Positions 6,961 to 55,800 of a stretch of DNA of 64,000 nt are shown here, piece by piece. How positions within the stretch are numbered: the stretch's first letter is position 1; each line of letters starts with the position of its first letter. The translations under genes were made by a program, and so were the position numbers. The notes beneath the pieces were generated by a model. The model saw only the letters and a program-made list of their open reading frames with translations. It had not been told where the DNA came from and made no database searches. This DNA comes from Antedon mediterranea (Eukaryota > Echinodermata > Crinoidea > Comatulida > Antedonidae): NCBI RefSeq assembly GCF_964355755.1, contig NC_092670.1:7811201-7875200 (forward strand). The letters are read 5' to 3'.

Positions 6961-7436
6961 GACGTACGTATAGGGTATGGCAGTAAACATTATGAGAATA
7001 GCCTACAATTAAAAATTACCTCTTACTACTAGGCTTGGAAGATATGTCTAGTTCAGATAGCTAAACTAAAGCCCAGCTCTGAGATTGGCCATGGCCTGGG
7101 TTAGACTAGGCCTACTTAGATAATAGCCTATAGCAAGTGCTGCTTCTGGACAGATATTTCTTATATCAATTCCAATAAACAAATATCCTAGATTAGAGAT
7201 AAATAAACTTAGACATAGATAAGAATAGAAGTATATCTTTTTGTTTAATTGCCAGCAGACAAAATAAAAGCATGCAATAAAGTAGCATGGGTAATCAACA
7301 AACACATCTTGATTGAAAAGCAATTTAAAACTTTAAATTTATTAGGACACATACATAATTATGTTTTTTATGAAATTTTTTCCAATTCTTATCAAAATGT
7401 TTTCATTAAAAACTCGACTTTTTATATTAGGTGATC

Positions 7437-8572
7437 ATGGAATCTTCAAAAACCAAAAGATATAACAACTGCAATGTGAGTAAATAAAATAATGACTATT
7501 ATAGTATCAATATTGTTCTTTACTAAATGATTTCAGTCTTTTCAAATACGGTACGTCAACAACAACACGTATATTTTATTCACATTTTACTCATAAAAGA
7601 GACAAAAAGAAAAAAACAAGTAACCTATTCTAATCTATTTTAACACCATCAGCAAAAAGTTGGCCCACTTTCACCACCGCCTAGAACACAAGCATTCGAT
7701 GGTCTAAGAGAAGCAATTGTTCCACCAATTCGAGCAGGGTATGACACTCTAATGTCTGAAGAAACTCCAGTGGCGCAAACCGACCAGTTTGGAGAAATGT
7801 ACAGATTCAAACCAATGCCGCCAATTTCGGCCAAACCTGAATCAAAGCCTGTGAGGAAACCCAAGCGGAGGAAACAAAAAATAGTGTAGGTATCAAACTA
7901 CACGCATAGCAATACGTTGTCTATGTATTCATACTGTAGATATGATATTGTTAGTACCAATTTCAAGCACGTTATTTTCAAACAATTTTTAAACAAAGTC
8001 CGTACGATTATAATTTTAGAAACAACTCAGATATCGCAGGAAAAGCAGTTATTCCACCAATTCTATCAAACTGTGAGACACGAATGCTAGTAGAAAGTCC
8101 AGTGGCGCAAACCGACCAGTTGGTAGAAATGAACAGATTTAAACCGATGCCACCTATTTCAGCCAAACCAGTTCACAAATTGCATTCACCAATCTCGGAT
8201 TCATCACGAGTTGAGGGACAGATCTGCTGCTTAAAACATAGACTATTGTAAGTACTAAACTACACAGGTATATTTGCGTTGTCTTAGTATTTATATTGTT
8301 TTTGTACGCATTTTCAAGCACGTTATTTCCAAACAACATTTAAAGCAAGACCATACAATTATAATTATAGAAACAACTCAGCAGTTATTCCACCAATTCC
8401 ATCAAACTGTCAGACACCTATGTCAGGAGAAACTCCAGTGGCGCAAACCGACCATTTGGTAGAAATGAACAGATTCAAACCAATGCCACCTATTTCAGCC
8501 AAACCAGTTTCCCCCTCAAATTCATCAGCAAATGGGGGAAAGATCTGGAGGAGGACATACAAACAATTGTAG
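7437..8572 (+). CDS. Unrecognised 233-residue protein built from three tandem copies of one exon
   Basis: I do not recognise this family. Coding exons are 7437-7475, 7653-7885, 8020-8247 and 8371-8572 (TAG at 8570-8572). Phases agree: exon 1 ends in phase 0 (AAT|GTGAGT), exon 2 goes from phase 0 to 2, exon 3 is symmetric 2-2, exon 4 enters in phase 2. The ATG at 7437 has A at -3 and G at +4. Each large exon encodes a variable start, a PPI motif, then a conserved core: (T/S)PVAQTD, EM, RFKPMPPISAKP, followed by a divergent, often basic tail. The core is nearly identical in DNA even at silent sites, so the copies are recent or homogenised. The protein is proline-rich with no signal peptide or membrane segment visible, suggesting a cytoplasmic or nuclear product. 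In every copy the bases just past the donor supply an in-frame stop, so intron retention would truncate the protein. Minus-strand frames here are shadows. Confidence 0.65.
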
Positions 8573-9039
8573 GTATCTGGCTGCACACACAAATACGTTA
8601 TCTTTGTATACTTAATTACATCGTTGCTCTATCCAAACAAATTATCTTTAAACTTTTGAAACAGTCAAATTAATTATTTTAAACTATTTTAATTTCCAAT
8701 GCTAATTTTTCAATAACAAAATTATAAAAAAAGTCATGCAATATTTTATAGGAACAGTCAATTTTACTTACATTTATAATACGAAAGGCTATTTTTTAAT
8801 TAACAAAAACGTTCCATGGTATAACGATTATTGACAGGCAGTTGAGGAGTAAACATCAAATTATTGTTGCTAGCTATTTTTTTAATTTAAGAGCGTGAAC
8901 TTATCGTACAGTCGTGGGCGTAACTTAACTTTACAGATTTGTCGGTGGTAGGTACATACTAGTTTCCTTTACCACGGTCATTGATTGGTAATTAACATCA
9001 AAGCTTCTATTATTAATAATAATAATTACGACACTTGAG
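8573..9039. other. Decayed intron copy, then AT-rich DNA
   Basis: The first part resembles the introns after exon copies 1 and 2: GTAGGTATC at the former donor, then a cytosine-adenine stretch and an ACGTT motif. The duplicated unit therefore included intron sequence. Beyond about 8650 the sequence is AT-rich with no exon that I can support. Confidence 0.45.
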
Positions 9040-9170: not shown

Positions 9171-9449
9171 TTCCTTTTTTATTTATTTAACAACATATTC
9201 ATTTCCTAACATATATTCATTTCGTAACATTTTCATTTCTTAACATTATTATTCATTACTTAGCATATTCAATTCTTAGCATATTCATTTCTAAAGATAC
9301 TAATTTCATAAAGTATTCATTTATTAACCTTTTATAATATAATCATTTTACAACATATTCTTTTTAGAACGCTCATAACATTCATTACATAACAAATGCA
9401 TTTCATAACATATTTATTTTATGTTATAAAATTAAAAAATAATAATACA
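9171..9449 (+). repeat. AT-rich degenerate array, left block (ATTCATTTCNTAACAT)
   Basis: Degenerate repeats of TTCATTTC(C/T)TAACATA at about 15-18 bp spacing fill this block. It separates the outlying 48-bp monomers from the main array and matches the block at 11215-11645. A reading frame that opens in it (9396) is only the entry into the minisatellite. Confidence 0.7.
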
Positions 9450-11214
9450 GTTACAATCCTCCTGGTGGCGCTCGACACTTTAGCTTATTTATCTAGCTTA
9501 TTTAGCAATTGTCACAATCTTCTTGGTGCCGCTCGACAATTGAGCTTATTTAGCAATTGTCACAATCTTCTTGGTGCCACCCGACAATTGAGCTTATTTA
9601 GCAATTGTCACAATCTTCTTGGTGCCACCCGACAATGGAACTTATTTTAGCAATTGTCAAAATCTTCTTGGTGCCACCCGAAATTTGAGCTTATTTTAGC
9701 AATTGTCACAACCTTCTTGGTGCCACCCGACACTAGAGCTTATTTTAGCAATTGTCACAATTTTCTTGGTGCCACTCGACAATTGAGCTTATTTTATCAA
9801 TTGTCACAATCCTCCCGGTGCTACTCCACAATTGAGATTATTTTTGCAATTGTCACATCGTCTTGGTGCCACCCGACAATTGAGCTTATATAGCAATTGT
9901 CACAATATTCTTGGTGCCACACGACAATTGAGCTTATTTAGCAATTGTCACAATCTTCTTGGTGCCGCTCGACAATTGAGCTTATTTAGCAATTGTCACA
10001 ATCTTCTTGGTGCCACCCGACAATTGAGCTTATTTAGCAATTGTCACAATCTTCTTGGTGCCACACGACAATTGAGCTTATTTAGCGATTGTCACAATCT
10101 TCTTGGTGCCACTCGACAATTGAGCTTATTTAGCAATTGTCAAAATCTTCTTGGTGCCACTCGACAATTGAGCTTATTTAGCGATTGTCACAATCTTCTT
10201 GGTGCCACCCGACAATTGAGCTTATTTTAGCAATTGTCACAATCTTCTTGGTGCCACACGACAATTGAGCTTATTTAGCAATTGTCACAATCTTCTTGGT
10301 GCCACTCGACAATTGAGCTTATATAGCAATTGTCACAATCTTCCTGGTGCCACTCGACAATTGAGCTTATATAGCAATTGTCACAATCTTCCTGGTGCTA
10401 CTCCACAATTGAGCTTATATAGCAATTGTCACAATCTTCCTGGTGCTACTCCACAATTGAGCTTATTTAGCAATTGTCACAATCTTCCTGGTGCCACTCG
10501 ACAATTGAGCTTATTTAGCAATTGTCACAATCTTCTTGGTGCCACTCGACAATTGAGCTTATTTTAGCAATTGTCACAATCTTCTTGGTGCCACCCGACA
10601 ATTGACCTTATTTTAGCAATTGTCACAATCTTCCTGGTGCTACTCCACAATTGAGCTTATATAGCAATTGTCACAATCTTCTTGGTGCCACTCGACAATT
10701 GAGCTTATATAGCAATTGTCAGAATCTTCTTGGTGCCACCCGACAATTGAGCTCATTTAGCAATTGTCACACTCTTCTTTGTGCCACCCGACAATTGAGC
10801 TTATTTAGCAATTGTCACAATCTTCCTGGTGCCACTCGACAATTGAGCTTATATAGCAATTGTCACAATCTTCCTGGTGCCACTCGACAATTGAGCTTAT
10901 ATAGCAATTGTCACAATCTTCCTGGTGCTACTCCACAATTGAGCTTATATAGCAATTTTCACAATCTTCCTGGTGCTACTCCACAATTGAGCTTATTTAG
11001 CAATTGTCACAATCTTCCTGGTGCCACTCGACAATTGAGCTTATATAGCAATTGTCACAATCTTCCTGGTGCTACTCCACAATTGAGCTTATATAGCAAT
11101 TGTCACAATCTTCCTGGTGCTACTCCACAATTGAGCTTATTTAGCAATTGTCACAATCTTCCTGGTGCCACTCCACAATTGAGCTTATTTAGCAATTGTC
11201 ACAATCTTCTTGGT
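9450..11214 (+). repeat. 48-bp minisatellite, about 36 monomers, hairpin-forming
   Basis: The monomer is about 48 bp: GACAATTGAGCTTATTTAGC, then AATTGTCACAATCTTCTTGG, then TGCCACTC. Each contains GACAATTG and its inverse CAATTGTC with 11 bases between, so each monomer can fold into a hairpin. Variants differ at a few fixed sites (TATTTAGC or TATATAGC; CTTCTTGG or CTTCCTGG; GCCACTCG or GCTACTCC), and strings of the same variants recur near 10300-10500, 10800-11000 and 11040-11160, which suggests higher-order amplification. Because 48 is a multiple of three, long open frames (QLSLFSNCHNLLGATR per unit) appear at 9396-11307; 49-bp units carrying TTTTAGC break them. I do not treat these frames as genes. 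Confidence 0.95.
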
Positions 11215-11645
11215 TTCATTCATTTCTTAGAATATTCCTTAAAATATTCCATTTCTCAACATAATCATTTCTTAACATATTCATTTATTAACATAATCAT
11301 TTCCTAACATATATTCATTTCTTGACATTATCATTTCCTAACACATTCATCTCTTAACATTCATTTATTAACATAATCATTTCCTAACATATATTCATTT
11401 CTTGACATTATCATTTCCCAACACATTCATCTCTTAACATTCATTTCTTAACATAATCATTTCCTAACATATATTCATTTCTTAACATAATCATTTCTTA
11501 ACATAATCATTTCCTAGCATATATTCATTTCTTAACATATTCATTTCTTAACATTATTATTCATTTTTAACATATTCATTTTTAACATATTCATTTTTAA
11601 CATATTCTTAGCATATTCATTTCTTAACATAGTTTTTAACTTCAT
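11215..11645 (+). repeat. AT-rich degenerate array, right block
   Basis: Repeats of ATTCATTTCTTAACATA follow the minisatellite without a gap. A sub-block (ATTAACATAATCATTTCCTA and its neighbours) is itself duplicated around 11287-11450. The block is composed like the one at 9171-9449. Confidence 0.8.
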
Positions 11646-13122: not shown

Positions 13123-16100
13123 TCAGAACCCTTTTATTTCCTTGCCTGGCATACAATGTCTACCGCCATCTATTGGTAAATGATGACCCGTTATGGACGC
13201 TGAGTCATCTGAGGCAAGAAATGCTATTGTGGATGCAACTTCAGTGTCCTCTCCATGTCGTCCGAGTGGATGATGTCGAACACTCGCGGCTTGGGCCTTA
13301 CAAAATAAAATATACAGGTTGTTAATGATTATCTGTTAGGAAAAATTGCGTTCTTCGCGCATTAAAATTGTATTGTAAAAAAGTGAAATGGTTTATACTT
13401 TATGTCTCTCATTTGACCACGATTTAAAATCTCGACATGTAGTAGTGTTGAGGCGGTTTTAAAGAAACATTATAAATACAGTTTGACCCTGCCTTGTAAA
13501 ATGATTTAGGGTAGTTGTAGTTTTAACAATATGCAGCCACTTTTGTTGAATCCCCAAGTCTCCTTAATAGGGGTTTCTACTGTATTCTTATTTCATGAAT
13601 GTGTTTTTTTAAATGTTAATAGTATTCACAAAACAAACACAATGGACGACATTCACTGAAGGGTAGCTAATCGTTCTTCGCGCATTAAAATTGCATTGTA
13701 AAGAAGTGAAATGGTTTATACTTTATGTCTCTCATTTGACCACGATTTAAAATCTCGACATGTAGTAGTGTTGAGGCGGTTTTAAAGAAACATTATAAAT
13801 ACAATTATATATAAAATTATATATAAAATTATATATAATTTTATATATAAAATTATATATAAAATTATAAGAGAAAAAAGGAAACAACTAAAGCTCAGAA
13901 AAGCGCAGGACGTGTGGAAAGATAGAAAATAAAGTGTTGTTTAGTTTGACTATTACAAGTATACATTTTCTAGTAATACTTTCATTTATTTAATTATAGC
14001 TGTACATTTTCAGATAGCTTGTTATATTAGGATAATCCTGAAACATCCATTACCATAACACAGTCTATTCTTGAACTTAACTTTTCTAATTACTAAATGA
14101 CATAAAACACTTACCAATTCCCAATCCACTCCGTTTCTTTCAAACAAAGGTGTGTGAACGATACCAGGGCTAACAAAGAAATATTATGATAGAGTCATGT
14201 TATTATTAAAGTTATATTAGAAACTTTACATTTAGAGTAGGCCTAAATTGGTTATATTAAAGAACACCAGTTGTGAAACTTACCAAACAGAATTTACTCG
14301 AACTCCATGCGGTGCTAATTCTACAAAAAAAACCCCAAAAAACACGATGGTGAAACATTACTATAATATTTAACAAATAATAAATAATATATATATATAC
14401 ACGGTAAAACCTCTGTTGTGCGAAACTCCTACTTGGGGGACTTTTCTCATCTTCTTCGAATGAGGAAAACTAATGTTTGAGGAACACATGCATTTGAATT
14501 ATGAATGCGTTTCATTCTAGGACTTAATGGAAAACTATATGAACTGAATTTTCTACACAACCTATATAAAGCTGCATTTATTTATTTATTTATTTTTATG
14601 ATGATGATATGGGCCAGGTTTATATTTTAGGCCTAATTTGCACTTACCGACAGCTGAATTTGTTGTCAACTTATCAAGCATGTATTTTGATAAACTGTAG
14701 AAAAACACATCACCACTCTGAAAACAGAACAATGTAAATCGTTCAGAAGTAGCGCCTTTTCTGTATTTGTGAACAGTGTTCTGTATATGCTTTAGCATTC
14801 AAGAGAATGTTAACGAATTAATGCTGTGAGGTGGTAGCAAAACAATTAATTTCTCACTTACCGAAACTTTGCTTACAACACTTGAAACATTAACAATTGT
14901 TCCTAAAAATAAAAGAATATCAACGGAGTTAAAAATTATCTCTATATTCCTTTCAATATTTATTTGTTTGTAAAAGCTTTGTAACGTTTGACTAGGCCTA
15001 TAGGGTTTTTTTTTCACAAAGCTGTAAATATACAATGGGACACCCATTGGAGGAAGCAACGCAAGCGTAACTTAAACTATGCAATTTGTTAAATCGCTTG
15101 CGTTTCGTCTACATTTTGGCGTTGCGTCTCTAATGGGAAACACTTGAAGGGTTTCCCGTAAACAAAGTAGATGACGTATGTTTTAACACTTTACGCGCTG
15201 ACTCTTTTTTATATAGGTGTCCTCTTAATACTGAATGTACTGTAATTTAGAAACCTACCTTTAGTTTTGATGAGATGTGGTGATGCAAGTTGTGATAAAT
15301 AGAACACCGCCCTCACATTGACATTCATGACTAGTTCATAATCATCCATTGTACTATTTTGAAAATCTTTAAGCACACAAACTCCGGCATTATTTACCTA
15401 AAAATAGTTAAAATAAAAGAAAATATTCAAATTGTATTGTTCTTTACGAAAATTCATATGCTTTTATCGTTCATACAACATTATTATCATATTTTATTTT
15501 ATTAAAAAAGACGCAATGAATAAGTTAAACGGAAAAAAGTGGGGATCAGAGCTTTAGACTTTTTAGTCAAAATTAGAATGATTTTAGGGTAATTGATTAA
15601 AGGAGCGAATTAATGCTAACCGGCTAAGAGAAAGTTGTCTTTAGTTGGAGGGAGTTTCTAATAGCATTTTTGTCTGTAATAAGGGTTATTTCTATATCGG
15701 TTTGAAAGGGAAATTAAATAGCAGCATAACAAAAAACTTTAATTTTTATTCATTTTTATTCAACCTTATAGAGGGGACCCTAAACAGCGTATGCTAACAA
15801 TCAAGGGGCCCTCGTAATGAGTTATACTAAAAATATTTGTTGTAACTTACCAAGACGTCAATTCGATTAAAACGTTTAATTGTGACGTCAACGATTCGCT
15901 CCAAATCAGAATCATTCGTCATCTCAGCGATTTGTAAAAGAACCTGTAGAATCAAATACAATATGTTATATTGTGTTTTAAATTGTATTGTATCTATGTT
16001 TTTAAGCTCAGGAAAACAAATTTCATATTTGTTATGGTATATGACAATGAATTGAATCTTGAATCTTGAATGTTTAAAACAAAAATATACACTTTGATGA

Positions 16101-17109
16101 TCATCGGCCTTTAAAGTGATTTTAAATGTATTGTACTGTATTATTATTACTATTATAATAAGCATTTATTTTGTAGAACATTTAAGTATAATTCAGTTTT
16201 TACCAACTTACGTACACCATAACGGTAAGTTACTGAAACTAAAGCCTTTAATAATTGAGCCAATAGCCTTATTTGTTTTAACATGCATACGTACGTGAAA
16301 CAAATAAAAAACTGAAAGTTCTACCTGATCTGAGTTTAGACCCCATTGCTGGCAATCTTTTCCTACGGCGTTCAGTCTCTCTTCGTTCCTTCCGACAAGG
16401 GACACAATGCATCCCAGGGAAGCAAAATGACGCGCTACGGCTGCCCCTATTCCAGAGCTAGCCCCTAATAATGTAATCAAATACAAATATGATTGACGCC
16501 TTGTTGATAACATCACGGTTGAGTGATCTCACACTGACAAGCTTATTATGGCCAAGTGTTAAGAAATTATGAACACATTCAATACTTATTTAGATAATCG
16601 GTACACAAAATCTCTACATAAAGAAATACATAATACAGATGTAGGCCTACTGTATATCAATTTGAATACTGATGATCGTTTAAAATCACATAAAAACAGT
16701 GAAAATGTAGGCTATCTTCGCTATACATATATCTAACGGTGTCCTTGATATGCTGCAGACTCCATTATGAGACACCGCTTGATGACGTTTCAAGGGGACA
16801 CTTTTCCCTTGTTTAATGAGAAAGTGTCCCTTTAATATGAATATCTCAAATAATGGATTCTACTGTAATATTTATCACATAATTACGCCATTAATATTGT
16901 CGTGGAGTTTGATTGAAAAACATTCAAATCCGAGCTATGAAAACTATAGTCACCAGTTATCATTGTAACACAGCTAGGAGAAGCATTGACATCACGGACG
17001 AGGGCTTATGACCTAAATTACTATGTTTACACACAACTTATTCAAGCTACTATAATGTGTTTGAAAACTTACCAGTTATTAATGCTACCTTTCCTTTTAA
17101 AGATGTCAT
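13123..17109 (-). CDS. Classical short-chain dehydrogenase/reductase (SDR), nine exons, 261 residues
   Basis: This is an NAD(P)(H)-dependent oxidoreductase of the FabG-like classical SDR type; the substrate cannot be told from sequence. Exons in transcript order: 17109-17073, 16464-16325, 15943-15851, 15397-15259, 14902-14862, 14717-14648, 14320-14284, 14169-14115, 13296-13123 (TGA). All introns are GT-AG and all phases match (786 coding bases). The protein starts MTSLKGKVALITG. Visible motifs are the cofactor glycine motif TGASSGIG (12-19), NNAG (92-95), the catalytic residues N117 (best guess), S144, Y157 and K161 (YSLSK), then LAPHGVRVNS, a PG motif, and a C-terminal ITGHHLPIDGG. Length is normal for the family. 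No signal peptide or targeting signal is evident, so it is probably cytosolic. The last intron carries a 132-bp direct duplication, and another holds a retrotransposon-like tail. Confidence 0.93.
13349..13480 (+). repeat. 132-bp direct duplication, copy 1 (SDR last intron)
   Basis: The segment from CGTTCTTCGCGCATTAAAAT to ATTATAAATACA is repeated at 13672-13803 with only about two mismatches and no length change. The copies are 191 bp apart within one intron, which points to a recent event. Confidence 0.9.
13672..13803 (+). repeat. 132-bp direct duplication, copy 2
   Basis: This copy is nearly identical to 13349-13480. It runs straight into a palindromic AT tract (13801-13870) made of repeated AAAATTATATAT, which can fold on itself and may mark the junction where the duplication arose. 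Confidence 0.9.
15033..15148 (+). mobile_element. Diverged family A element inside an SDR intron
   Basis: GCAACGCAAGCGTAAC and, facing it, GCGTTTCGTC plus GCGTTGCGTC reproduce the inner inverted parts of family A. AATGGGACACCCATT and CTAATGGGAAACACTT are the degraded ends. TTAA borders are not preserved. Confidence 0.35.
16000..16070 (+). repeat. Retrotransposon-like 3' tail in an SDR intron
   Basis: GACAATGAATTGAATCTTGA ends in repeated GAATCTT units. This is the same kind of short-motif tail as at 5080, with a different motif. No coding part is visible. Confidence 0.4.
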
Positions 17110-19941
17110 TTTTAAGCTGCCAAAAATTGCCTGGTAAAAATATCCGAACGAAAAACCACGCTGTAGAACGACTGGGATTGCGTTGAAAGCGATTTACTAG
17201 GCCTACCCGCATAATTTAATAATGTATTACCGACCAGCAATAGTTTCTGATGGATTTGCACATGAATCTAATTTACATTCTAAACCTGTTCAAAAATGTT
17301 TTTCTATCAAATAATATATAAATTAATTAATCAAACATCGTTTCCTTCTATTAATGTATTGATAATTCAAGGATATTTAGGCACAGTGGGACCCCTCTTT
17401 CCCCAAGGTGTAACATTTTCGTTATCCGAACGGAATCTAATGGATGTGTGTAAAATGTGTTTATAAGAACAAATCTCGATTCAAGGCACACTTTGCTTAG
17501 TCCCGAAGAGTGTCCTTTTAATAGGAATTCTACTGTATTTTATCAATAATGTAAAACATTTGTGTGTGTTTTTTTTAATACTGTACTTAAAAATTGAGAG
17601 CGACAGAGGGCGTGTTATTTCATATTTTAGCTCATATTGACAGATAAAGATAAGTAACTGTAGATTTTAGTATACAGCTATTGTGGAGTCACCATTAATT
17701 TTTCTGAAAATCTGTACTGTAGTGAGTATCTATTAAACTCTAAAAAACAAACAAAAAAACAAAACAAAATGCTATACTTCGGCAAAATTGTATTTTTCCA
17801 CGCAATTTCTTTTTTCTTACAATTTCCGATATAAGCAAATTAGAACAAAACGTAATTTTGTATTGAACCCTCATTCATGTTCACGTGACACCACCCGCCA
17901 CCTCATATTATGGTATCATTCGTTGCAATGAAAGAGTATAGCATAATAGGCCTACACATTTATTGGCTTATACACAACAACAGGACCAAATATTGCCTTA
18001 AAAATGTTTTAATGAAAGAACAATACCATGAACGTACACCTTTCTTGGCTTAGTTGCGATGAGTGGATTTCAGGCCGAAATGTTTGACTTTGACGATGCT
18101 GTGTAATGAAAAAAACAATAGGCCTTAAAACTTAGCCCACACCTTTTCCTGGCTTAGAATTTGCGGCGAGTAGGCTAAAACAGGCCGAAATGTGACTTTA
18201 AAAATGCTGTAATCAAAAAACAATAGACTTTTTGAAATACAACGAGCATTTGAAAGGTATTTAGGACGACTGAGTATAAAACACTTAATTAAATAAGGTG
18301 TTTGCTTTATTCTTAGCCTAACAAGGAAGCTACCTCTAGCCACGTGTGTGTAGATTTAAGCTGTGTAACATATTTACAGGAGTGATTATAATTACATTGT
18401 AGATAGTTCTGGATTTCAATGGCGACACGCTTTACCCTATTTACTTTTACCTGATAATCGCGCTCAGGTATTGTAGTCACATCCACGTGCCTGTAACTCC
18501 GATTCCATTGTCTTGCGTGGATCCGCAACACCCGTGTCTTAATCCCAGCTCATTCATGTTAATATTATTATATAATAGGACTTTTTGCAGGTTTCAAGTG
18601 CCCGGTTAGTAAAGTGGACAGAAGAGATTTAAAACTCAGACTTTTACTATTGCTATAAGTGTCTATTTCCGTTTAACAAAATAAAAATAAAAGGAGGCAT
18701 ACAAACATGCTATGAAAACTTGTTATCATATTCTATGTTATGCCGTTGTTTAAAACAGCATAGTGAGATACGGTAAGCGTATAATTATATACACTTTTTA
18801 ACAATTATAAACAATTTTGTGAGGCCATTTTACACAGACGAGCGAAAAAAAAAACACGAAAAAATGAATTGAAACGAATAATCTGTTTATACATACATAG
18901 CTTTCTATTGTTTTCCGTTACCGCTCGTCTGTGAAAATTAGCCTTAATAATCAAAATGCAATATAAAATTCATAATTTAATAATCAAAGCATGGATGTTT
19001 CCAGGTTATAAAGTAGCCTACAGTACATCATTCGTTTACTTGTATAATGTTCTATTTATGTTTCATAGTATTTATTAATAGAAATATCACTTATTTTAAC
19101 ATTTTTGGAAGCCACAATGGGTTAATAATGATTAATAAAATATATATTTTAATTAATACAAAAATGTAACCGATACAATACCGTATACTTGCTGGGGTGG
19201 TTTTTTTTTCACTGTATTATTTTGATATGAAAATCAGTTTTTTAAATAAAACAAAAATCAAATCAACCTAGGTAAAACCTCTATTATGTATGTACCACCT
19301 CCTGAATCACTGGTGCCTGGATACGTAGCTATAGTGTGTAAAACATAATATATTTCTCCTTGTTCTTCACACAAAGGTTATCCCCTTGTCTCTATGATAT
19401 TTTGATATACTGTAATATGGGATTATTAATATATAGCCCCGATTTTAAGAAGACTTCAGTTTATAAGGCTTGGCAGTAGTATTCAAACTTATACAAACGT
19501 TAATTTGAATTGTGTCCCCCTAAATAAGGTTGTACCAAAAAAAGTAGGTACCATGTATATAATTTTAAATAGTTGTTATTATGACGCTCGAATGTCGTCA
19601 ATGCCATGTTTAGAGGTTATGGTAATTAACGTTTTTAATTGCATTTTAAAATGACAGATCTGTTATGAGTCTTAATTGCGGTATGCCTCTAAACAATATT
19701 CATTTTCTGTTGTAACATGTGTAGTAATTGTGATTGGCTAGTCCGCGTTGCTCTTAGTTATTTGCCTATGAAGTGCTATCCGTGGATAACGTGTTACGTC
19801 AACCAGAACAAAAATTCGCGAGTTATTGATTTTTTTTACACGATGAGAAAAATACTTTTAAATTTATTAATTTAATCGTTAACAATATTTTAAATTCAAC
19901 CATGGTGGTGGCCTACAATATAACAGATAACATGAAATAAA
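17110..19941. other. Intergenic DNA upstream of the SDR gene
   Basis: Two possible acceptors (TTTTACCAG and TTCTACAG, about 17135-17165) could end a 5' UTR exon of the SDR gene. No TATA box or CpG island is obvious. Short frames at 18125-18531 show no domain. I see nothing else of note. Confidence 0.5.
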
Positions 19942-20286
19942 ATGATGATGGTTGTAATGATAATAATGATGATGATGATGATGAATTGATGGTTGTGATG
20001 ATGATAATGATGATTGTGATGATGATAATGGTTGTGATGATGATGATGATGATTGTGTTGATGATGGTGATGATGATGATTGTGATGATTGTGATGATGA
20101 TAATGGTTGTGATGAAGATGATGATGATGATGATGATGATTGTGTTGATGATGGCGATGATGATGATTGTGATGATTGTGATGATGATAATGATTGTGAC
20201 GATAATAATGGTTGTGATGAAGATGATGATGATTGTGATGACGACGATGATGATGATTGTGATGACGACGATGATGATGATGATTG

Positions 20287-20318
<32 letters not shown>

Positions 20319-20392
20319 GTGATGATGATTGTGGTGATGATTGTGATGAAGATGCTTGTGATGATGATTGTGATGACGATGATGATGATTGT
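19942..20392 (+). repeat. (GAT)n/(GATTGT)n microsatellite
   Basis: About 450 bp of GATGATGAT is interrupted by GATTGT and GATAAT variants. On the minus strand it reads as a run of His and Asn; on the plus strand as Met, Val and Ile. Both long frames (19896-20609 minus and 19986-20414 plus) come from the repeat. The minus frame also passes through the neighbouring transposon end at 20411-20440, giving KLCLHYQTL, the same peptide that appears near 58280 from another copy of that element. Confidence 0.95.
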
Positions 20393-20410
20393 TTGTCATT
20401 TGATTGTTAT

Positions 20411-20440
20411 ATAAAGTTTGATAGTGTAGACAGAGCTTTA
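20411..20440 (-). mobile_element. Solitary terminal repeat of family B
   Basis: ATAAAGTTTGATAGTGTAGA followed by CAGAGCTTTA matches the right terminus of the family B elements at 21812, 32461 and 49820. No left end was found nearby, so this is a fragment next to the GAT microsatellite. Confidence 0.65.
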
Positions 20441-21811
20441 TTAGAAAAGTATGATTTAATTGTAAAAAGTGAAAACCCTTATAATCAATAAAATCCATCG
20501 ACAGGTGAGTAAATGTATCCATAACGATTTTGATATCAAATACAAATATTATCAAAGCAACCGCATGTATTTTTCTATTTCCAATCAAACAGGTAAATGT
20601 ATTTAACATTAGTTAAGTAAACCCTTATTGTGTTGATTTATTTATAGATGATCGGATTGTATTATCATTTCCCATCCTATGAGTTATAAACCACAATATT
20701 TATTTTGATAACAAAATGAGCTAGAGTGTGGCGCAACCCACGTGTTATAAATGCTTTAATATTCGCAACTGTTTCAATGAATCAAAGTTGTTTATTGGAG
20801 TTGTGTTTATTTACCGTACTAATAATTTAATTTCATTTTGAATATTATTTTTATAATTGTTTTCCGACTTTCTGTTTGAAAATTAAGAGGTAAGCTTGGT
20901 TTTCAAGGAATATTTTAGATTTTATCTAAATGTATTTTAAGGATTGGAGAGACGTAGCCCTATGTTAGTTAACATATTTCTTTAAAACAATCCTTAAAAA
21001 ATTGGAATATTGTTTTCACTTAGGCTACAAATAAACGGTTAAATTCAACGAAAAATCAATAGGCTGGTAGCCGATATGACTTTTTTCCTTTTAAATTACA
21101 TTTTTTTTGCAGATGAATATTTATTCAACATACAAATTTTAAAATACATAGGTCTATATATTTCTTTAAAATGAAATATTATTTATTTTATTTTAATACA
21201 CGATATTTTTAACGTATTTGTATTTTGTACAAAACTCAATAAAAAATTTAGATATATATATTTTTTTCATTTACCATACATTTTTGCTCCATTCGTCTAT
21301 GAAATAATAGAGCATTTTTGTATACATTTGTATAAATCCAGTATTTTCTTTTTGTGGGTTTGTCATCACATTTATTTCAATTCTCTGTATATAATTTTCT
21401 TTCATTTATTTTTATGTTCAATATATTATTATAAATATTCTTACAAAGTTAAAAGTAGTTAAATATATATGCATATTTACATAATAAGATGATTGATTTC
21501 AATATAAAATCATATTTCCTAAATGTTGACATAGTAGATGTTTATGCATGAGTATTCACACAATCGAGAGATAATAGTTTAACGCTAGGTTGATCATTAT
21601 AGGTTTGGAAGTGGTCCGTGTGATATCTTCCCACGAGTCGTGTATAGAAAACTCCAATGAACAACAAGAAGAAACCAATTGTAACAGTAACATCTAACGG
21701 AAGTGTATTATTAGGTCAATTCAAGACTATTCGTTCATGATTGATATAAGTAATCTATTAGGATTCACTATCCAAAAATAATTGAGCTTGTAAATTGAAA
21801 TTTACCTCTTT
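20441..21811. other. AT-rich intergenic DNA
   Basis: Nothing supportable was seen: no domain-bearing frame, no ordered repeat and no RNA gene signature. Confidence 0.6.
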
Positions 21812-24280: not shown

Positions 24281-25105
24281 TCATGATGTTGATGTAGATG
24301 CTGGAACGATGCCGTATTTCTTAAATTGTGAAAAATGACTTGTTACTTTCTTCAACTTGCAATCTGAGACTTCTTTTCCGTTCAGTACATCTGTCATGAA
24401 TTCAATATAGATCATAGCGAGTCTCAGTGTTTCGATTCTGGAAAGTCGTTTTTCGTAGGCGAAAGTTGGGACGAATTTGCGGAGTTCATCAAAGGCTTCG
24501 TTCAAGCTGAACATGCGTTTTCTTTCACGGACATTTGCTGCTTTTCGTTGGGCTTGCGTCGGAACTCTTCTTCGTGTTTTCACCTTAGTAGGTGTCGTCT
24601 GCTGCTGTTGTTTATAAAAGTCTAGGCCCATTTGATAGTTGTTATTTCCTTGATAGAAATTACAAAACTGATCTACACCACTAAAAGCCATGTCAGCTAC
24701 ACTACCAGAAGGAACCATACATGACGGTTCTTGCCATTGTTGCTGCATGCCTACATGTGGTCCGTTCTGAAGGACGGTTCCGTTTTGAAAATTGTGCCCA
24801 TCATGCACTTGATGGTGTCCGGGTAACCCGTTGTAAACAGGCATTTGTTGAGGAGATGTTATCAACTCTCTTGGAGGTGAAAGCATGCAACTTGAATCGT
24901 AAGCAAAGTTACACGCCGATGATGTAGTGCAGGGTGCCGATGTTTGAAACATGTTCCCCATGTCTGTATAAGTTTGCGGTGGGCTAAGTTCTAGGCCCAT
25001 TGAATCAGACTCTGATAACGGTGGGCTAAGTAGAAGTGCATCTTCGTCGTTGCTAACCATATTCATCAGCTCATGTAGGCTGTGGTTCTGCTGAGCCATC
25101 ATCAT
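24281..25105 (-). CDS. Fer3: Fer3/FERD3L-type basic helix-loop-helix transcription factor
   Basis: This nuclear DNA-binding factor is expected to bind E-boxes (CANNTG) as a heterodimer with an E-protein. The single exon encodes 274 residues. The basic region is about 185-198 ([14 protein letters not shown], with the E-box-contacting E194), helix 1 about 199-213, the loop carries [18 protein letters not shown], and helix 2 runs to about 241. The [16 protein letters not shown] and [18 protein letters not shown] segments fit Fer3/FERD3L better than Ptf1a, which reads RERRRM and LPYEKRLSKVDT there. Unlike the short vertebrate FERD3L, about 180 residues precede the bHLH; they contain four Ser-Pro sites (near 27, 41, 76 and 84), Met/Gln/Asn-rich stretches and a QQQQ run, and are probably a regulated activation region. 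Three ATG codons are adjacent at the start. A TATA box lies about 110 bp upstream. Plus-strand frames here are shadows. Confidence 0.9.
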
Positions 25106-25202
25106 TGCAGGCTATTAGTTTGTAATTGGACGTGTGAAGTATTCTGCAACAGATTTCCTTCTGCTGCTTCGTCGCACTCTACGATTACTACTACTCCATC
25201 GG

Positions 25203-52892: not shown

Positions 52893-55800
52893 TCATAACA
52901 CCGACCGTTCTACCGTTACCCATTCACATCTGCATCTGCCTTCCTCTGAATTGAAAAGCATTCCTTCTATGCACGACGGTGTTCCATAATCACCCGATTT
53001 GACATTTCTGAAAGAAAAAAAGGAAAACAATTTATTACGTTTAAATCGATGATTGAAAATAAAGTGATTTGGTAGCTTTAATCGTTCGATTCAACAAGTG
53101 ACCAGACTTGATATCCAGGAAGATTATACAAATCTGTTTAGGTCACTTTCAAAGTTAGCATTATTACACCATTTTGAATGGCAGTATTCATTAAGCTTGG
53201 TTCCAACTTGCAACGCAACGCAAGTTAACCAATTACAAGCGACAGATGATCCGATTCATCGTGTCACAACATTATTTGCGTCGCACTTTTGTCCTTTGCG
53301 TTGCGAAACCAGTCCTTAGACCTTACCGGAACCCTAGTTAAAATTATCGCAATTATACCATTGTATCATTAGCTGCTGTTCCGTAGGCATACTAATATAG
53401 CACCGATGCTCTCGCAGTATCTTACCGTACGTGTTGGTGAATGATAATAGTTAAACTTTGCTTACCTGCAATGCTTTGAGTTAACTTCTTTTCTGCCTTT
53501 CATAAATTTTTCACAGTTTTTGTCTTCGTTGTCACATTCACATTTGCAAGTTGTTTCGTTGGTGTGGAATGGTTTTGGGCATTTGATATACCCACACAAT
53601 GAGGGCGTTCTTCGAGAGTCCTCGCAAGCGCAATTTGAAGGATCCATTGTAGTTCCCGTCGGACATGGATTTGCACATTCGCATTGTTTGGTTTCCAAAG
53701 AAAAAACTTGTCCTTCTGAGCAGTTTCGGTGTTCGACTTCTCCAGATTCGATCTCTTCAACTTCATTCTCTTCGACTTCGTTCCGTTCTGCTTCCTTTTC
53801 ACCCTTTACATTTTCACATTGACACAAATATTGGTTAAGAGCAGAGCCAGTTGGGCAGACTATGTTTAAACATCTGCAGACTGCTATGGTTTCATCAAAT
53901 TCCTGATTCTCACCACATGAACTTACTTCTTCTCTTTGATCTGTGTTCTGTGAATGACAACTACAACGCGTGTCTTCTAGTTCTTCGAACCTTCGAACTG
54001 TCAGCTCATGATTTTCTATGTGTAGGTACTAAATGAATTTAAAAAATATATATATAGAAATATATTAAAATAAAACTTTGGTAATAAAAATGTGGCATTT
54101 TAAACACAGTGAATAGTGTTTTCTTCTTTTTCGTATTCGTATTTAATGTTTTATCTTGGGGTGGGTAAAGTCTTTCTGACTTATATGACCCTCACACTCC
54201 CCCTCCCCCACCAAAAAATGAGTACTTCATTGTATTTATTATCCTCTATGTTATTATATTGTGGAAATAAATTAAATTGAAATTGAAATAAATCTTTTCC
54301 ATGTTTTCCCCTCTATGTGGCGGCTCTGGGCAAAATAGCCTCACTATTTTAATTGTGACTTCTGCAATTATACAGTAGATATTGGGTCACAATAATATAG
54401 CATACAGTACTATTTATTGTTAACAGCTGAAGTACATTGTTGGTTTACTTCCTTCTTCAACAATCAAACAAACAAAAATGATGGTGAGTGCAGATAAAAC
54501 ATTTCTTTAGCCGATTATTGTCGAAGTAGAACTAAAATTTACTATTGTTTGAAGTTGTGTCTAAACAAACTCTATTCTAATAGTATAGGTCACCGGAGCG
54601 TGGCCGCCTAGGGTGAATAAAAGACTTTAATTACACTAAATTGACACATGTCATTACTGTATGAAAGATTCATTCAAAAACGAGGTCATTCATTGGTATC
54701 TCCCCAGTATAGGAGTTTAAAGAACTGAGAATAATCTTTTATTCGTTTTTACTAAAATTGCATTTTACTTATTATTATAATACTAATAATAAGGCATATT
54801 ACACGAAGCAGTGCTGATGTGCGAGACCATGATATAGCCAAAGGGCATGGGAAAAGATATTTCATGAACTTTCTATTACCTGCCACACAAATTTAAACTC
54901 TTAGCGCCATTAACCATTGGATGCCAATTGTGTATGCCGACATACAGTAAGTGTAGAAACGACGAGATTGATGTTTAAGAAATACTGTTTTCATATTTAT
55001 ATTCAAACAAAGTGTACCTACCGTGAAATTTCTTAGTCTAAACTCTATCCCCACGCATTTCAATCCAGGGGTACAGCAACCACTTTCTTGTGAGCATTTA
55101 TTGACTGCTATCCCTGCAGGTGAGAGTATTACGCTCTCGCTGATGTGCAGCCTCTCATACAAGTTCACAGCTTTCGGCAAAGGTTTTTTACACATAGTTT
55201 GACTTGTTGCTGAAATAAATTCGTCTAATTCTAGAAAAGAAAGAATTGAAAACTAGTTCATCAATAATAATACTACTACCAAAATTTGACAATAGAAACC
55301 CTTCTTAAAAAATATTTCTCATAATATAGGCTTTAAAAAATGGCTTCCTATTGCAGTTCATCAGCGCCTGTGTGAATGCTCTACTCATTTCGACGTATAA
55401 TTTAACCGACGATTTCAATTCACGTTTGTTCGCACATAATAGTGGCTTACAATCTTTAGTGAGATAGGCCCTATTGTTTTTAGTCTCGTGCAACGCGACT
55501 ATACAGCTCACTATGTCGGTTGGTCGGTCGGTCGTTAAACACTAACTTGAGCACGCTACTGCAGTCATGTATATGGCATTGTTAATACACCATCATAAAT
55601 ATATCAATAGTAGCCTATCTTACCTATTTCTGCCTGGATTTTCGATAACCGTGAGGGTGGACGTACATCTTTGTTATATGCTTCATGATACATTCTATGC
55701 GCTTCAGTGCCATTTACACCAAACGCCAGTTCAATAATTTCTTTTGGATTCAAGGTATAACTGAATTCTCTGAGACGCTGAAAAGAAAAAAAAAATTAAA

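Follow-up and report, generated by a model that had tools for sequence, protein, structure and literature searches.

A tandemly triplicated exon-plus-intron unit in a predicted small gene of Antedon mediterranea

A short segment of the Antedon mediterranea genome raises the question of what has been copied there, whether the copies encode protein and what a protein built from them might do. The segment lies within a 64,000-nucleotide stretch of contig NC_092670.1 (positions 7,811,201 to 7,875,200 of the forward strand; RefSeq assembly GCF_964355755.1), referred to here as the window, which we searched against the 354 Mb genome in 18 contigs. A first-pass annotation had described a gene made by recent tandem triplication of one exon. 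Three tandem copies are indeed present (7653–8751, plus strand, one reading frame), and their matches to each other at both the DNA and the protein level bear out tandem duplication, but the copied unit is an exon plus its intron, about 330–360 bp in size, rather than an exon alone. Repeat analysis identified a 130-nucleotide family at 7712, 8044 and 8380, in which the outer copies share 79% and 92% identity with the middle copy. Searched as protein, copy A recovered the other two at E 7.7e-12 and 1.3e-11, and reciprocal protein matches among the copies ranged from E 2.0e-11 to 1.0e-16. The three-copy repeat is not a product of chance. On balance, we lean towards reading the locus as a small plus-strand protein-coding gene of five exons, in which a repeated core would serve as a linear motif and allow multivalent binding by a basic, proline-rich protein.

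The annotated coordinates, the junctions 7475/7653, 7885/8020 and 8247/8371 and the resulting 233-residue in-frame product were all reproduced, as were the acceptors of the second and third copies (ATAATTTTAG and ATAATTATAG, followed by AAACAACTCAG) and the 2-2 phase of the middle exon. The proposed end of the third exon, at the TAG at 8570–8572, needed revision: this stop probably belongs to the intron, given that every copy has an in-frame stop across its donor (GTG TAG, TTG TAA and TTG TAG). Copy C carries the common donor GTAGGT at 8569, and exon C most likely ends there and is spliced to a short final exon instead of reading into the TAG. The acceptor of that final exon is AATATTTTATAG, and its start, GAACAGTCA, resembles the AAACAACTCAG of exons B and C. 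The five exons of the revised model (Table 1) would encode a predicted product of 241 residues.

Table 1. Features of the predicted gene, in window coordinates
Feature	Position	Strand	Description
Candidate first coding exon	7437..7475	+	ATG in GATCATGG, donor GTGAGT at 7476, phase 0
Exon copy A	7653..7885	+	233 nt, phase 0-2, donor GTAGGT
Core in copy A, 24 codons	7767..7838	+	PVAQTDQFGEMYRFKPMPPISAKP
Intron A	7886..8019	+	134 nt
Exon copy B	8020..8247	+	228 nt, phase 2-2
Core in copy B, 24 codons	8099..8170	+	
Intron B	8248..8370	+	123 nt
Exon copy C	8371..8568	+	198 nt, phase 2-2, assuming the donor common to A and B
Core in copy C, 24 codons	8435..8506	+	
Intron C	8569..8751	+	183 nt; donor end homologous to intron A
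Candidate last exon	8752..8781	+	NSQFYLHL then stop; placed by homology and frame

All four plus-strand GTRRGT donors between 7300 and 8900 fall at proposed exon ends, where the window rate predicts about 1.2 such donors, with three of the four being paralogous copies of each other. We regard the gene structure predicted from these signals as fairly well supported. Its least certain parts are the first exon, the last exon and the acceptor of exon A. The candidate first exon, ahead of which an acceptor-like TTTTTATATTAG ends at 7430, is without repeat support, and 65 of the 93 open frames presumed to be non-coding attain its codon score; the exon A acceptor at 7652 is weak and lies outside the acceptor pattern used. 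Downstream of the candidate stop, AGTAAA occurs at 8848 and ATTAAA at 9431, and AATAAA was not found between the stop and 9430. An acceptor-like CCACCTATTTCAG lies within the cores of copies B and C (8150–8162 and 8486–8498), copy A being without it, and could give rise to cryptic splicing.

Substitutions alone leave the coding strand unsettled, because an antisense frame shares its third positions with the sense frame. If the minus strand were the coding one, the block would give an antisense product (GLAEIGGIGLNL...) and the plus frame would be its shadow. The open length of that antisense frame is 82 residues in copy A, 54 in copy B and 72 in copy C, and in the first two copies it crosses the whole block. 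Its core differs between copies at 2, 3 and 1 amino acids, as compared with 3, 4 and 1 in sense; one antisense frame of copy A also has the higher codon score (0.035 versus 0.030). In copy C, however, a stop interrupts the antisense frame within the block, and in B and C the plus frame has a higher codon score than every minus frame. The minus strand moreover carries a GTRRGT donor only at 8771 within 7300–8900, with none between the copies. As far as the DNA itself can tell, the splice sites decide in favour of the plus strand, and we judge a minus-strand gene highly improbable.

The core of the plus-strand product has the 24-residue consensus PVAQTD..xEMxRFKPMPPISAKP. It had been described as almost unchanged even at silent sites, whereas we find that 8 of its 10 variable columns (among 72) are third codon positions (binomial P 0.0034, uncorrected for frame choice). 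Differences at codon positions 1, 2 and 3 number 1, 1 and 7 between A and B, 1, 1 and 6 between A and C, and 0, 0 and 3 between B and C; core dS values are 0.138, 0.304 and 0.520. The dN/dS comparison between copies that had been suggested as a check gave about 0.1–0.25. Constraint is confined to the core, because the 18 variable columns found in the 18 codons ahead of it spread evenly over the three codon positions (6, 7 and 5). In an amino-acid simulation of the core, only the A–B comparison was significant (P 0.0099, versus 0.13 for A–C and 0.22 for B–C). Within the first 18 codons dN exceeds dS (0.46 versus 0.19 for A–B), and we rejected positive selection ahead of the core since amino-acid changes there were not above simulation (P 0.39, 0.76 and 0.65). 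Of the selection or gene conversion previously invoked for the core, the former holds: purifying selection on the protein suffices to account for the pattern seen in these alignments, and there is no need for conversion limited to the core.

A more deflationary possibility is that the array is a non-coding tandem duplication, either a local repeat or a decayed gene copy, whose open frames were inherited by chance. Tandem repeats are abundant just downstream (9495–11214), the libraries searched returned no family match, and synonymous codon choice is unremarkable in A and C: judged by synonymous choice alone, the scores of A, B and C are attained by 35, 0 and 16 of the 93 open frames presumed to be non-coding. 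Against this stand the third-position bias of the core, the donors positioned at exon ends, the exon lengths and the codon scores. Outside the ungapped block the exons extend by 25 and 10 nt on the 5' side (B and C) and by 47, 77 and 62 nt on the 3' side (A, B and C), and the differences in length are 15 or 30 nt, each divisible by three. A, B and C all outscore the 93 presumed non-coding frames in a codon test whose training set was 20 receptor genes and a helix-loop-helix gene; this test is confounded by base composition, since antisense frames score high too and the coding windows are the training genes. With composition removed, z is 1.83 for A, 2.78 for B and 3.20 for C. In a ranking of the window's 385 open frames, the frame of B comes 15th and that of C 17th, while that of A is absent from the 32 listed. 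We consider a non-coding origin very unlikely and retain the coding interpretation.

The description of the gene as unrecognised stands, as no recognisable family emerged from the libraries searched. A DNA search of the 354 Mb genome found no copy beyond this locus, whole-genome protein searches with copies A and C (E up to 10) each returned three places, all at the locus, and a degenerate RFKPMPPI peptide pattern gave 3 forward matches, again all at the locus, 0 reverse matches and 0 in the reversed control. Distant relatives might escape such searches because only best candidates or exact patterns are scored. The 233-residue product had no Pfam match above the curated cut-off (best E 0.027 and 0.049), and identities as Speriolin or baculovirus Ac109 were dismissed as Pfam matches below it. 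The PDB yielded no match with the product and none with the repeat profile, while NCBIfam and PHROGs, searched with the three repeat stretches only, gave nothing significant (NCBIfam best E 0.49). Pattern searches of viral and prokaryotic contigs produced 20 and 50 matches, 0 of them confirmed; no RNA family matched in the window at gathering scores; and four core strings had no match in the searched literature of 5.39 million papers. The gene is perhaps lineage-restricted.

How the array grew can be approached through its introns, which remain alignable. Unit homology starts within exon A near 7710 and extends to the AAACAACTCAG at the start of the next exon. Introns A and B are identical at 106 of 134 aligned positions including 11 exon bases (95 of 123 without them), and their local alignment score is 137, compared with a shuffle maximum of 46. 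The corresponding A–C score is 66 (shuffle maximum 46), and the B–C score of 44 (shuffle maximum 49) is not significant alone. The intron preceding exon A has no homology to the other introns. Introns A and B can be aligned at their ends to the 3' end of intron C with the acceptors in register at 8751. Of 500 single-base shuffles, 8 reached the score obtained with A and 1 that obtained with B, and a second placement of C is available. By halves, without exon bases, intron identity is 39/58 and 52/65 for A–B, 38/58 and 40/70 for A–C, and 32/56 and 38/63 for B–C. Intron differences amount to 28/123 for A–B, 31/123 in one alignment or 34–43% by segments for A–C, and 40–43% by segments for B–C.

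The exons are related differently. Over 42 codons dS is 0.127 for B–C, 0.345 for A–B and 0.290 for A–C, hence the duplication is not very recent, contrary to the original description. Nor are the exon tails entirely different, as had been stated: they are identical at 39/62 positions in B–C, 22/47 in A–B and 26/47 in A–C. Informative sites in the exons number 28 for BC, 6 for AB and 12 for AC, whereas those in the introns number 27 for AB, 8 for BC and 14 for AC with the 11 exon bases excluded (33 for AB and 8 for BC with them). The BC and AB counts differ between exon and intron at a Fisher P of 8.1e-7, which becomes 2.1e-7 if intron C is placed the other way and 0.0003 if only the donor half is used. 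By these counts copy B is a mosaic, its exon nearest to C and its intron nearest to A. Part of this pattern could come from unequal rates or from a misaligned intron C, there being three copies only.

The array may accordingly be described as having grown in two steps. In the history that we prefer from these comparisons, exon A would first have undergone unequal crossing-over with the start of the last exon, and further unequal crossing-over between copies would then have united a C-like exon and an A-like intron in B. Exon-wide conversion between B and C is an alternative second step that would leave the same trace as a crossover; B and C are the closest pair along the entire exon, unlike their introns. 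Since the similarity is not limited to any one part of the exon, it speaks for a late crossover or for conversion of the exon as a whole, and for nothing core-specific; gene conversion restricted to the core was set aside on the same ground. Two rounds of unequal crossing-over remain our preferred history. The surroundings are repeat-prone, which would fit with unequal crossing-over. Just downstream of the gene, 9495–11214 is a minisatellite with a 48-bp unit (35.7 copies, 93% match), followed at 11234–11631 by a 16-bp-based array.

In addition to the middle exon, whose symmetric phase had already been recognised, exon C (198 nt) can also be symmetric, provided that it uses the common donor and is joined to the exon at 8752. 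With B and C both in phase 2-2, the number of motifs could change between one and three by splicing or crossing-over while the frame is kept: predicted isoforms lacking C, B or both are all in frame, with 175, 165 and 99 residues as compared with 241. This opens the possibility that B and C are alternative exons of the same gene, either cassette or mutually exclusive, so that most proteins would contain two motifs and splicing would pick the linker that follows the motif. B and C are homologous, agree in phase, have nearly identical acceptors and leave the frame intact in any subset. On the other hand, nothing in the 123-nt intron or its splice sites presents an obstacle to B–C joining, and copy A, with its different phase (0-2), is not exchangeable with B and C as a third exon. 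We regard alternative use of B and C as unlikely, if with a sizeable chance of being right, and continue with the five-exon model that includes both.

What might the core do? The linear-motif reading arises because a conserved 24-residue core sits between fast-changing flanks; the core PVAQTD..xEMxRFKPMPPISAKP would be a motif for a binding partner, and its three copies could provide multivalent binding. The predicted product is basic (pI 9.8) and rich in proline (31 of 241 residues). The repeat of exon B is not predicted to fold (pTM 0.15, mean pLDDT 61.6, with three sequences in the alignment), and charge-hydropathy is 0.430 overall as compared with a boundary of 0.436. The protein is perhaps largely disordered according to these predictions, and disorder is a weak inference only, because copy B (0.477 versus 0.423) and 8 of the 13 sliding windows come out as folded by charge-hydropathy. 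A secreted precursor was considered and rejected by inspection only, as MESSKTKRYNNCN is without a hydrophobic stretch and no regular dibasic sites surround the cores.

Class I SH3 ligands follow the consensus [RK]xxPxxP. RFKPMPP fits this simple pattern in all three copies, and the pattern also occurs in 7.4% of core shuffles; a difference from such ligands is that here lysine precedes the first proline. The motif sequence thus offers a weak lead towards a class I SH3 ligand.

Another candidate function is that the cores are docking sites for the dynein light chain LC8 (DYNLL) built on AQTD. Every copy has QTD at positions 0, +1 and +2, core shuffles contain the loose pattern [TVIA]QT[DEP] in 1.4% of cases, and the genome contains 10 dynein light chain matches, as expected of any animal. 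Several LC8 clients are described as having multiple sites (PMC10046861). The LC8 motif rules favour branched buried residues at -1, and prolines ahead of the anchor disfavour binding (PMC6607443). The core departs from those published rules at both places, with alanine at -1 (AQT in all copies, and a TQT count of 0) and proline at -3 in 3/3 copies, and LC8 docking was mostly rejected on this basis. Docking would also leave the equally conserved RFKPMPPISAKP unexplained. We consider an LC8 function extremely doubtful. Disordered proteins with multiple LC8 sites such as ASCIZ (PMC5963919, PMC10046861) share with the predicted protein a short repeated motif and variable linkers, and differ from it in that here the core is off the published rules at -1 and -3, disorder is weakly supported and there is one motif per exon. 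An unassigned binding motif within a five-exon gene remains the reading that we favour.

The mechanism class, copying of exons in tandem, has long been known, and the process itself is established in animal genes, as described in PMC9013439; what is new here is an example in an unrecognised gene. As in the cases covered there, neighbouring exons and introns are homologous and open frames are retained. Here, by comparison, there are three copies, the gene is very small and of no recognised family, and a 24-residue core is kept while its flanks diverge. Adjacent exons are homologous at the protein level, the intron is duplicated and the phase is symmetric, all of which are criteria for tandem exon duplication.

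If expressed, the gene would be a compact case of a protein gaining repeated binding motifs through tandem copying of a phase-neutral exon, in which selection would keep the motif while its flanks are released. Its alignable introns and small size make the sequence of duplication events readable, and copy counts in related species would reveal whether selection acts on motif number. A bolder version, which we think quite unlikely, would have a lineage-restricted gene founded on a new 24-residue binding motif whose number depends on copy-number change and on the phase-neutral exons that are alternatively included; such a gene would vary among individuals or related species as a scaffold of adjustable valency.

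Elsewhere in the window, short-chain dehydrogenase open frames lie on the minus strand at 15212–15397 and 16211–16528 (E 5.6e-8 and 8.7e-8), and a triplet-repeat tract at 19882–20488 stays open in several frames of each strand. The minus-strand frame at 54896–55252 weakly matches a PDGF/VEGF domain (E 0.00075, under the curated cut-off); near it is a cysteine-rich frame at 53465–54028 with no Pfam match. Genome-wide, there are at least 148 matches to 7tm receptors. A 276-residue open frame at 24284–25111 on the minus strand encodes a helix-loop-helix domain (E 8.6e-19) for which the closest solved chain is Twist-related protein 1; it resembles a FERD3L/PTF1-type factor.
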